A stretch of DNA of 24,858 nt from a virus. Position 1 is the stretch's first letter. The number at the start of each line of letters is the position of its first letter. A program made the translations under genes and the position numbers. The stretch lies in the IMG/VR virus record IMGVR_UViG_3300042451_001762, positions 1-24,858 of that record; one strand, given 5' to 3'. Below the pieces are notes generated by a model. That model was not told the origin of the DNA. It worked only from the letters and a program-made list of their open reading frames with translations, and searched no databases. Of this stretch, positions 21,094 through 24,781 are shown one piece after another.

Positions 21094-22710
21094 TTACGCT
21101 GTTAAGTAACTTGGGTTAGTAACAGTTAATGTGAAGTACTGAGTTTCAGGGTGCCATCCAGCTTCAGTGATAGCATAGCGAGACTTCATACCGATCTTCG
21201 GAGAGAAAGTACCCTCAGAGATAGTTTGAAGAGATTCTGCCATGATATATGGAAGGAATTTAACACCTGGTTCTTCGTCTGCACCTTTACGGCCGATAAT
21301 GATACGAGTGTCGTTGAACTTCATGTTAGGATCAACGTATACAGTTAAGCCGTATACTTTACCAGCTGGGTACAACTGACCTGCTCCAGCAGGAAGATCG
21401 TTGTTGAAAGGAGCGATAACGTAGCCAGATACGTCTGCAAGAGCAGAAGCGATACGGCCGTTAGTTACTACGAAAGTACCTGCACCGAAACGTCCTCTGT
21501 GGTAGATTAAGTTTGCGATTTCAAGGATCTTAGTAACAACTTTACGTTGGTTAGCGCTAAGAGTGAATGCGTCAGCAGCACCTACTGGGTTTATTAGAGA
21601 ACCTAGGGTAGCTCCAACACCTTCTATTTCGTTCGCTTTAGTTGCGTGAGCTGCACCAAGCTGAGCAACACGGTCAACCAACTTCTTGTTGATAGACTGA
21701 GCAAGTTCGTTAACTGCTACGTTCTCCAACATAGAGATTACGTCGAAGTTCCATACGCGGTTAAGATCTTGGATTTGCTCAACAGAAGCAGAGATAGCAA
21801 CTTGGTCGCCTTTTGCTTCGATGAACTTGGTGAACATTCTTAAGCCCATTTGACGGAACTTAGATTGCTCAGCTGCTTCTCTAGTCATGCCGAATGCAGA
21901 CTGGTTACCAGTTGTATCAGCGAAAGGACCGTTGAAGTCAGTAGTTGCATAATCAGCATCAGATACTGAAGTGAAACCAGAGATGTGGTTCTCAAGAGCA
22001 GATACTAGAGATACAACGTTAGCTGCATCAAGAGTAATGCTGTTTAGAACGTTACCTGCTGCAATGTAAGTTGCAAGGGTAAGAGACTCGTCAGAAGAGA
22101 TCACTTTGAAGATAGGATCGCCATCAACACGTGAAGCACCTACATACTGAAGAGTAAGAACTGCTGCAGTACCAGCACCATCACCGTCAATAGTGTAGTT
22201 TGAACCAGCTGCGAAAGTTGCTACTTCAACTGCGGTAAAACCAGCAATTTTGATTAGGTAAGGCTCGTACTCAGAACCTAAGCTACCACCTTGGTAAACG
22301 TAGTCTAGGTAAGGAAGGAAACCTACTGGAGAATCCATAGGAACAACACCAACTAGGTCGAAACCGATAGTTTTAGCTGCTACTTGAATTGCAACTGGCA
22401 TAAGTGATGGGAATTTATCACCTGAACCAGCAGCGGTTGTTTTTGCACCACCTGCAGTGAACGGAGTCATTGCGTTGGTTGGAGCGCTGATTGCGCCCAT
22501 AGAGCTGATAGAACCTGGTTGTTGGAAGAACAAACCTGGAGCTACAGCTGCTTCGTTGATAGCGCCAGCGTTTTCGAAGATAGCGTGGTTGTGAGCATAG
22601 TCAACTAACCAAGGGCGTGCATTTAAGTCTACGCCATAACCTTCTAAAACTGGAGCCCAAGTCTCACGTACGCTTGCGTCGTTGAGTCTTTTGAAAACTT
22701 TAGTTGCCAT
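21094..22710 (-). CDS. 23: Major capsid protein (gp23-like)
   Basis: HK97-fold capsid subunit. The 538 residues are near T4 gp23 (521). The region KFPSLMPVAIQVAAKTIGFDLVGVVPMDSPVG at about 98-130 corresponds to the T4 segment with IPNLIAFDICGVQPMNSPTG. Late segments (GRFGAGTFVVTNGRIASALADV, VYVDPN, then RIIIGRKGADEEPGVKFLPYIMAE) follow the gp23 order. The N-terminal propeptide probably ends at I51-N52-E53|A54, matching the (L/I)-x-E consensus of T4 prohead protease. Residues about 180-260 seem to contain an inserted beta-rich domain. It lies 18 bases after the protease-scaffold gene, as 21-22-23 in T4, with no separate promoter seen; codon use is more GC-rich than neighbours, consistent with high expression. 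Confidence 0.92.
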   Translation of the reverse strand: MATKVFKRLNDASVRETWAPVLEGYGVDLNARPWLVDYAHNHAIFENAGAINEAAVAPGLFFQQPGSISSMGAISAPTNAMTPFTAGGAKTTAAGSGDKFPSLMPVAIQVAAKTIGFDLVGVVPMDSPVGFLPYLDYVYQGGSLGSEYEPYLIKIAGFTAVEVATFAAGSNYTIDGDGAGTAAVLTLQYVGASRVDGDPIFKVISSDESLTLATYIAAGNVLNSITLDAANVVSLVSALENHISGFTSVSDADYATTDFNGPFADTTGNQSAFGMTREAAEQSKFRQMGLRMFTKFIEAKGDQVAISASVEQIQDLNRVWNFDVISMLENVAVNELAQSINKKLVDRVAQLGAAHATKANEIEGVGATLGSLINPVGAADAFTLSANQRKVVTKILEIANLIYHRGRFGAGTFVVTNGRIASALADVSGYVIAPFNNDLPAGAGQLYPAGKVYGLTVYVDPNMKFNDTRIIIGRKGADEEPGVKFLPYIMAESLQTISEGTFSPKIGMKSRYAITEAGWHPETQYFTLTVTNPSYLTA

Positions 22711-22728: not shown

Positions 22729-24702
22729 TTAATTTTGTGCTCTACGTTTTAGAGCTGCAAGATAGTCGTTTGAGTAACCTCTTAGACTTTCATTGACTTT
22801 ATTTAACGAGACGTAGCCTTCTGCACCTTGGCTTTCGTTAATTTTTTCTGAATTTGATTTTTCAACAGCTAATCTTTCGTAAATTCCGCGAAGATCACGA
22901 GAATCCCAGAATGATTTAACTTGGTAAGCATTATTTAATTGGAAGTTATGCGCTTGAGCTGCAATCCAATTTCTCTCACCATCTGTCATGCTTTCAAATA
23001 CTTCTTTGTATTTTTCTGGCATAAATCTTACGTATTTAGGAGTATTTTCCTCCTGCTTATTAAGAACTGCCTCCATTAGATTGATAACTTCAGCTTCTGT
23101 GAAGTAAACTGCACCTCTTAGAGTTTCTACGATTGCAGTTTTAGTCTCTTGATCTAATGAGAAGAATTTTTGTTTATTGTTTTCGCTTAGAAGCTTTAAG
23201 AATGGGTATCTGTTCTCTAGAACTGTATTTGCTGCATTTGATTTAATGTGGCCGATAATGCCGTCAACTGCTGCAACTAGTTCGTCTACTCCAGACTCTT
23301 CATTTACTTCGTAATTAACACCTTCATTTAAGGTCTTAACGTCGGCTAGTAATTTGCGAGCAGAGATTGCTGCGCTTGGAGAAATCTTTTCATTCATAGT
23401 TTCAGCTAGATACTCAGAATACTTGATTCCTTTTTCTAGATTCTCTCCTAAGTAGTCTGCGTATTTAATAGCAGCTTCTAGATTTTCGCCAATGTACTCA
23501 GAATAACGAATTCCTTTTTCAGCTTGTTCAGCAACATACTCTGCATACTGAATTCCTTTGTCTGCTTGTTCAGCAACGTATTCTGTATACTTGATGTTCT
23601 TTTCAACCTGTTCAGCAACATATTCTGAATAGTTAATTGATTGATTTACTTTTTCGCCTAAATAGTCAGAGTACTGAATGTTCTGTTCTGTCTTTTCTGC
23701 TAAGTAATCAGAGTAATCAATTACGTTGTTTACTTTTTCTGCAACATGCTCAGTATAGTTAATTCCTTTATTCAACATAGTTGAAAGGTAATTAGTATAC
23801 TCAACAAGCTTTTCCATTTCGCCAGCTAGATAGTTAACATAAGTAACCATCTTTGGAGAATCGTTAGAACTTTCAGATAGAGCGTTGATGCCCTGGTTGT
23901 TCTTTGTAATGCTTTCTTGAAGAGCCTCGAACTTTTTCTTAACTAGCTCAGAGTACTGATTAAGTTCTTCTCTACTTACAAACTCATTTGCCATTTGTTT
24001 GTTGTTATTTTGAGTAGGTGTATTCATTTCTGAATTATTTATCCTATAGACCTTCACAGAATCCTCGAAATTGAAATTTTCTGAAATATCCATAAGTTTA
24101 TTTGTAACGGAAGTTTGCTTTAATAGATCTAATGATTCAAACACGCTTGTGAATTGTGTTTGTAAACCTTCGTTTACTGATTTTTGTAAAATTGCTTGCG
24201 AGAAACCTGGCTCGGCAACTAGGTCGTAAGTAAAGATTCTGTGAAGTTTTACTTTACCTTCATTCATTACTTGACCAGCAGCTCTAGAAGAACATGAGAT
24301 TGTGCAACCAGACTCAACTAAAGTCTTTGCGATCTGACCGGCTGGTGTATTTAGGATACGAAGCTTGATTTTTACTGAATTAGATCCTTCGTCATAGCTT
24401 AGGCCTTCAACTACGTGTGAAACGTTCTTAAGCGAAACGTCAAAGCTTTGTGGGTGATCAAGTTCTCCGAAAAGCTGACCCTTTGAAATTTTTTCCTGCA
24501 GATAAGAAAGGTGAGGTAAATACTCCTCCTTCTCATAAACTCGGTTGTTATTATTCTTAACTCCGAATACTGCAGCGGTACCTTCTAATACAATGTCTCC
24601 ATTCTCATTAGATACATCAAGTCCCTCATTGATTCTCTCAACGATGAAAACCTCATTCTCAGTTGGAACCGGCGTGCTCAAATTGATAAGTTTAGTATTC
24701 AC
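22729..24702 (-). CDS. 21: Prohead protease fused to scaffold protein (gp21-gp22-like)
   Basis: 657 residues in two parts. Residues about 15-175 are a prohead core serine protease (T4 gp21 family): GELDHPQ with H83, ISCSSRAAG with S138/S139, and TYDLVAEPGF with D160 as likely catalytic Asp. Residues about 237-657 are a highly helical scaffold-like region: coiled coil, then eleven 14-residue repeats at 287-440, then a helical C-terminal part. In T4 the protease (gp21) and scaffold (gp22) are separate genes; here they are one frame directly upstream of the capsid gene. The start is GTG at 24702 (no usable ATG), preceded by a two-codon ATG-GCT-TAG whose stop overlaps the GTG. An internal late box and Met226/Met237 suggest that the scaffold is also made alone. 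Confidence 0.88.
   Translation of the reverse strand: MNTKLINLSTPVPTENEVFIVERINEGLDVSNENGDIVLEGTAAVFGVKNNNNRVYEKEEYLPHLSYLQEKISKGQLFGELDHPQSFDVSLKNVSHVVEGLSYDEGSNSVKIKLRILNTPAGQIAKTLVESGCTISCSSRAAGQVMNEGKVKLHRIFTYDLVAEPGFSQAILQKSVNEGLQTQFTSVFESLDLLKQTSVTNKLMDISENFNFEDSVKVYRINNSEMNTPTQNNNKQMANEFVSREELNQYSELVKKKFEALQESITKNNQGINALSESSNDSPKMVTYVNYLAGEMEKLVEYTNYLSTMLNKGINYTEHVAEKVNNVIDYSDYLAEKTEQNIQYSDYLGEKVNQSINYSEYVAEQVEKNIKYTEYVAEQADKGIQYAEYVAEQAEKGIRYSEYIGENLEAAIKYADYLGENLEKGIKYSEYLAETMNEKISPSAAISARKLLADVKTLNEGVNYEVNEESGVDELVAAVDGIIGHIKSNAANTVLENRYPFLKLLSENNKQKFFSLDQETKTAIVETLRGAVYFTEAEVINLMEAVLNKQEENTPKYVRFMPEKYKEVFESMTDGERNWIAAQAHNFQLNNAYQVKSFWDSRDLRGIYERLAVEKSNSEKINESQGAEGYVSLNKVNESLRGYSNDYLAALKRRAQN
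23383..23844 (-). repeat. Eleven tandem 14-codon (42-base) repeats in the scaffold region
   Basis: Residues 287-440 are exactly 11 x 14 residues with the pattern x-Y-s-e-Y-v/l-a/g-E-x-x-x-x-x-I, for example KYTEYVAEQADKGI and RYSEYIGENLEAAI, with no insertion or deletion. Fourteen residues are two heptads, so a continuous coiled-coil rod is likely. Nucleotide copies are diverged. Confidence 0.92.
24035..24043 (-). promoter_or_regulatory. Internal late promoter motif within the protease-scaffold gene
   Basis: The - strand reads GATAAATAA at the boundary between the protease and scaffold parts, 7 bases before Met226 and 40 bases before Met237. It matches the boxes found before the other structural genes and could drive a separate scaffold mRNA. 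Confidence 0.5.
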
Positions 24703-24723
24703 TAAGCCATGTAAATTTTTTAT

Positions 24724-24731
24724 TATTTATA
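24724..24731 (-). promoter_or_regulatory. Late promoter motif for the protease-scaffold gene
   Basis: The - strand has an exact TATAAATA, about 21 bases before the GTG start at 24702. Confidence 0.72.
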
Positions 24732-24740
24732 CAGGAATAA

Positions 24741-24754
24741 CCCGCCAAAACGGG
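24741..24754 (-). terminator. Weak hairpin after the upstream - strand gene
   Basis: CCCG (24741-24744) pairs with CGGG (24751-24754) around a 6-base loop, followed on the - strand by TTATT. The stem is only 4 bp and there is no long U-run, so termination is doubtful. Confidence 0.25.
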
Positions 24755-24769
24755 CGATTTCCGTATACC

Positions 24770-24781
24770 GTTATTTATTAC
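24770..24781 (-). promoter_or_regulatory. Late-promoter-like box overlapping the upstream gene's stop
   Basis: The - strand reads GTAATAAATAAC, including the TAA of the gene that enters from the right edge. It is a second box about 68 bases before the GTG at 24702. Confidence 0.5.

Follow-up and report, generated by a model that had tools for sequence, protein, structure and literature searches.

We analyzed a stretch of viral DNA of 24,858 nucleotides (IMG/VR record IMGVR_UViG_3300042451_001762, hereafter the window), in which a single 657-codon open reading frame combines a T4 gp21-type protease, a disordered linker and a helical scaffold, and lies directly before a Gp23-type capsid gene. 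The features of the locus are the following:

24771..24779, minus strand: AATAAATAA, the more distant of the two upstream late boxes, where the preceding gene ends (motif match)
24723..24731, minus strand: TATAAATAA, late box for the protease start, 20-22 nt upstream of the GTG and at the same place in close relatives
22729..24702, minus strand: fused head maturation protease-scaffold ORF, 657 amino acids, GTG start, one open frame
24172..24630, minus strand: gp21-type serine protease domain, residues 25-177 (H83, S138/S139, D160), from Pfam S80/S77 and from PDB 5jbl by profile and fold
24079..24087, minus strand: I206-S207-E208, a conserved [ILV]-x-E and candidate protease/scaffold cleavage site (alignment)
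24035..24043, minus strand: internal late box GATAAATAA, read in frame as codons for R-I-N-N (motif match and conservation)
24025..24027, minus strand: Met226, not conserved (comparison of relatives)
23974..24042, minus strand: disordered N/Q/K-rich linker, residues 221-243 (AlphaFold2 pLDDT about 30-45), which by its start-context score would double as an A-rich leader
23992..23994, minus strand: Met237, conserved putative internal start codon of the nested scaffold (conservation and start context)
22729..23994, minus strand: nested scaffold gene beginning at the conserved Met237, predicted product 421 amino acids (about 47 kDa)
23389..23838, minus strand: about eleven 14-residue repeats of the YSEYVAEQVEKNIK type, forming a long helix (repeat analysis and AlphaFold2)
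22852..23205, minus strand: conserved C-terminal helical domain, residues 500-617 (pLDDT 70-82), possibly the capsid-binding part
21094..22710, minus strand: Gp23-type major capsid protein (Pfam Gp23, 1.8e-37), the next gene after the fused ORF

Residues 25-177 match the Pfam families Peptidase_S80 (E 1.2e-9, 38.1 bits against a cut-off of 23.4) and Peptidase_S77, the family of T4 gp21 (E 3.5e-9, 36.9 bits against a cut-off of 27), and H83, S138, S139 and D160 are invariant in relatives. An AlphaFold model of the ORF was built from 29 relatives; its overall confidence is low, and being weak for the scaffold (mean pLDDT 57) it was used just for domain limits and for the protease fold. With this low-confidence model, Foldseek returned T4 gp21 (5jbl, E 6e-7) as the best solved structure and the pseudorabies virus protease pUL26N (4v07) as the second structural match. 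The model comprises an ordered protease domain with its last strand at residues 216-220, disorder at residues 221-243, long helices from residue 244 and the helical C-terminal domain at residues 500-617. An initial annotation of the window had proposed a protease and a long helical scaffold-like region in one 657-codon frame, and both parts are borne out by the ORF at 22729-24702 (-), by the Pfam matches and invariant active site residues, and by the predicted helices. The scaffold repeats at 23389-23838 (-) keep a strict 14-residue period with paired Tyr residues; their number differs among relatives and may be linked to head size. About 100-130 nt before the capsid gene, a run of synonymous codons (AAC GAA AGC CAA GGT ... 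TCG, 22807-22839 (-)) is fixed in the window's group; it is not a late box.

We compared the ORF with 66 distinct fused relatives (31-100% identity) from the IMG/VR collection and from huge phages of 462-735 kb; the relatives are not fully independent samples. Each full-length relative has one uninterrupted frame. Annotated phages of Rhizobium, Acinetobacter, E. coli and Thermus, too, contain a T4-type protease and scaffold fused in one frame, and the fusion alone is therefore not new. The hosts of the window's phage group are probably Bacteroidota, because relatives have been binned with Bacteroidetes genomes and because their genes lack Shine-Dalgarno sequences. Some relatives encode a bS21 ribosomal protein (G013:C1:41662-41814, G015:C1:46716-46874, G007:C1:40696-40851). 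We do not claim identity with the bS21 phages of lake Bacteroidetes (PMC9723584); in G013 and G015, the protease and bS21 genes are >100 kb apart.

Two in-frame Met codons, 226 and 237, had been put forward at the protease/scaffold boundary, and the comparison separates them. A Met is kept at the Met237 position in 66/66 distinct fused relatives, and in the 29-sequence alignment Met237 is the sole invariant residue between residues 203 and 242. Met226 is missing in L010-L018 and in nearly all other relatives and was ruled out as the scaffold start. The internal Met, located by pattern across the relatives (by hand in L107), sits in a hypervariable N/Q/K-rich linker, in contexts including MANEFV, MADFV, MNEYV, MAENKDFV and MTEVKENEYV. 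Its spacing to a conserved FVT-like motif varies by several residues among the 66 relatives, and a conserved Met with such variable spacing behaves like a start codon. A Shine-Dalgarno-like sequence precedes just 1-10% of the genes in these phages, and true starts have A-rich leaders. With a start-context score derived from 461 genes, Met237 reaches the 98.5th percentile among internal ATGs and ranks 1 of 11 in its ORF. Its strong conservation and start-like context constitute the sequence evidence for an in-frame internal start that would give the scaffold alone.

Rhizobium phage RHph_TM61, E. coli phage IME392 and Acinetobacter phage Ab1-TPeters likewise have, ahead of the capsid gene, one ORF for a T4-type protease and a coiled scaffold, with an in-frame Met at the boundary. 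In these three, however, initiation appears to be of the Shine-Dalgarno type: a Shine-Dalgarno sequence is found at normal spacing before the boundary Met (Met207 in TM61, Met204 in IME392, Met218 in Ab1) and before no other internal Met of the fused frame. This supports, independently, the assignment of an internal start. Unlike the window, the three fusions have no late box at the boundary (no TATAAATA nearby), and their records ('prohead core scaffolding and protease' ORFs) carry no annotated separate scaffold product. These fusions suggest that the nested design is a recurrent one among T4-type phages.

Among 8-mers upstream of genes in the window's group, ATAAATAA is the most strongly enriched. 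It precedes 32/190 genes in G001 (0.3 expected from counts inside genes), 26 genes in G013 (0.2 expected) and 21 in G012 (0.6 expected), mostly at 15-25 nt before the ATG. ATAAATAA thus has the properties of a T4-type late promoter, a NATAAATA box at fixed spacing upstream of late genes. The late box of G010 and G009 is GATATATA (31 against 0.2 expected and 32 against 0.5, respectively). A match to a gp55-like late sigma factor was found in 9/10 related genomes, the eight best with E values of 1e-6 to 8e-5 and the ninth with 0.006. The T4 late box spans -13 to -6, and its first base is poorly conserved in other T4-like phages (PMC1524935). Judged by motif and conservation, GATAAATAA is a real late-box variant of the window's phage group, and an ordinary one, because the first T4-box base is so poorly conserved elsewhere.

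The internal late box that had been noted at the protease/scaffold boundary is indeed found, as GATAAATAA at 24035-24043 (-), and is conserved across relatives. By T4 spacing, transcription from it is predicted to start at ~24030, which would leave about 3 nt ahead of Met226 and about 36 nt ahead of Met237, similar to the first estimates (Met226 nearly leaderless, about 30 bases to Met237). Counted over the whole window with one mismatch allowed, TATAAATA is no commoner than expected by chance, and we discarded this count as a test. Taken singly, the internal box is thus no proof; it gains its significance from the comparison of relatives. In the first group, to which the window belongs, 34/35 relatives have ATAAATAA within 80 nt upstream of the internal Met, with 1 occurrence elsewhere in 63 kb of fused ORFs. 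In the second group, GATATATA takes this place in 24/24 relatives and is absent from the remaining 45 kb of ORFs. The boundary boxes thus match the promoter dialects, and they are not swapped between groups, bar one extra ATAAATAA in a second-group member; L066 carries ATAAATAGT. The initial annotation had singled out conservation of box and Met237 among relatives as the comparison that could refute it. The Met holds in every relative and a boundary box in 58/59 relatives of at least 37% identity, but in the seven most divergent fusions (L020-L024, L126, L127) the Met persists while the box is degenerate. In nearly all relatives, 37-71 nt separate box and Met. The usual distances are 15-25 nt or 4-6 nt, and this greater length counts against reading the pair as an internal promoter with its start at Met237.

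The locus was next set against known head gene arrangements. T4 shares the protease family and fold (5jbl), the gene order 21-22-23 and gp55-type late boxes, whereas its protease (21) and scaffold (22) are separate genes. In T4, the late box of gene 22 overlaps the stop codon of gene 21, 27 nt upstream of gp22, and corresponds in position to the internal box of the window. Because of this overlap, the simplest history for the present layout would be a T4-like 21/22 pair in which the gene 21 stop was lost and the late promoter and start of gene 22 were retained. In Sphingomonas phage PAU, a homologous protease (gp151) is followed by the scaffold (gp152) in two separate adjacent genes, representing the unfused state. 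The box of T4 gene 23 lies 134 nt upstream, inside gene 22; the capsid gene likewise has its own box 138-152 nt upstream, inside the scaffold end, in 15/32 relatives, and none in the window.

Herpesvirus UL26/UL26.5 also places an N-terminal protease and a C-terminal scaffold in one frame (PMC4498786). The linker from release site to scaffold start measures 21 residues in pseudorabies virus (PMC4498786) and about 28 here. The protease folds are related (4v07), but the catalytic triad is Ser-His-His in herpesviruses and Ser-His-Asp here, and hosts and promoters differ. Herpesviruses make a shorter, 3'-coterminal in-frame scaffold, and their nesting has been demonstrated experimentally, whereas here such a scaffold is predicted from sequence; for a transcript of its own, as with UL26.5, the indications are the conserved late box and the synonymous constraint described below. 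In lambda C/Nu3, the scaffold is read in the same frame from inside the protease gene, as we propose here, but C belongs to a different, ClpP-like protease family, and Nu3 arises by translation from an internal start codon, with no T4-type late promoter involved. The likeness to lambda drawn in the initial annotation is thus supported for the nesting layout, but lambda is not the sole closest parallel, UL26/UL26.5 being at least as close.

Together, these features make it likely that the locus is a nested gene, in which the fusion is expressed from the upstream box, a separate 421-residue scaffold is expressed from the internal box and Met237, and the two products co-assemble through their common scaffold part. 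Expression from the late box TATAAATAA, with a weak GTG/TTG start, would yield the full-length protease-scaffold fusion in modest amount, and the internal late box GATAAATAA with Met237 would yield the free scaffold. Sharing the scaffold part, the fusion would co-assemble into the core and bring the protease into the prohead. The protease would then probably release itself at the [ILV]-x-E site before the linker and cut up the scaffold. The protease starts of close relatives are GTG or TTG, and the contrast with the ATG of the scaffold is only suggestive of an excess of scaffold over protease. It is also likely, if somewhat less so, that huge T4-type phages of Bacteroidota in general have such a herpesvirus-like nested gene, with the gp55-type late promoter of the scaffold located inside the protease frame and kept from T4 gene 22 after loss of the gene 21 stop.

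In principle, conservation of the protein itself, at K-I-Y-[KR]-I-N-N and at the scaffold N-terminus, could have produced box and Met incidentally. Partial conservation is indeed seen at these residues, and the box partly overlaps the K-I-Y and I-N-N residues, so that only the synonymous part of the box is independent evidence. ATA encodes the Ile of I-N-N in 19/19 first-group representatives, compared with 0-37% ATA at 12 other conserved Ile columns. In the second group, it is the Ile of K-I-Y that is ATA in 15/15 (0-53% at 22 other Ile columns), the preceding Lys/Gln codon always ends in G (AAG/CAG in 15/15), and the Ile position of I-N-N varies freely. The two group boxes thus occupy different codons of the same stretch. 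L095 has lost the I-N-N residues, yet it has two ATAAATAA boxes closer to its Met, apparently having re-made the box. Synonymous choice that is fixed only at the box codons, the shift to other codons in the GATATATA group and the boxes of L095 together cannot be explained by protein conservation, which leaves this account barely credible. The same constraint, with its matching to the promoter dialects, is left unexplained if the fusion is the sole product, cleavage in the linker releases the free scaffold, and Met237 and box are incidental. Such processing would fit the single long frame in all relatives, the conserved [ILV]-x-E before the linker and the roughly doubled number of [LI]xE sites in the scaffold (14 compared with 7.2 in shuffles), the cleavage rule of the T4 prohead protease being L/I-X-E (PMC9026906). 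It does not account for an invariant Met amid variable neighbors in a start-like context, and we regard it as very improbable.

A greater, though still rather low, probability attaches to the free scaffold being made only by translation initiation at Met237 on a long transcript, with the box serving mainly the capsid gene or being redundant. No other late box lies between the protease start and the capsid gene in the window, and the internal box is hence the last before the capsid gene. The distant relatives that keep the Met without a clean box and the fusions with Shine-Dalgarno starts, which have the start but no TATAAATA nearby, can be read in the same way. T4 gene 21 itself has an internal start, Met45 (PMC9026906), but its product is a shorter protease and not, as proposed for Met237, a scaffold. 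The boundary box is, however, conserved even in the 15 relatives in which the capsid gene has its own box, which argues against its serving mainly that gene.

If this holds true, T4-type heads join herpesviruses and lambda in having a nested protease/scaffold gene, and there is a simple route to nesting, in which one stop codon is lost while promoter and start are kept. It would provide a mechanism for setting the protease:scaffold ratio and for carrying the protease into very large proheads. Where the scaffold lies concealed in an ORF named protease, as in some of the largest known phages, current annotation would then overlook it. Our search of the open-access literature found no description of a nested protease/scaffold gene in T4-type phages.

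Upstream of the protease gene, in the region 24739-24779 (-), the two late boxes are separated by a short G+C-rich hairpin-like stretch; relatives retain the boxes, but the sequence of the stretch varies. Late-box dialects differ among related huge phages (G001-G006 compared with LR7565xx), with ATAAATAA, GATATATA and TTAATATATA as the variants. The late box of the LR7565xx phages is ATATATA, and TATAAATAAT is not enriched in them. These dialects offer a chance to study the joint change of a late sigma factor and its boxes. Late boxes in part of LR756502.1 (140001-280000), G010 and G001 fall into two spacing classes, one at about 15-28 nt before the ATG and one sharply peaked, in which 4-5 nt separate the end of the box from the ATG (22/79 in the LR756502.1 segment). 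If T4 spacing holds, transcription in the short-spacing class would start at or next to the start codon, giving leaderless late mRNAs.
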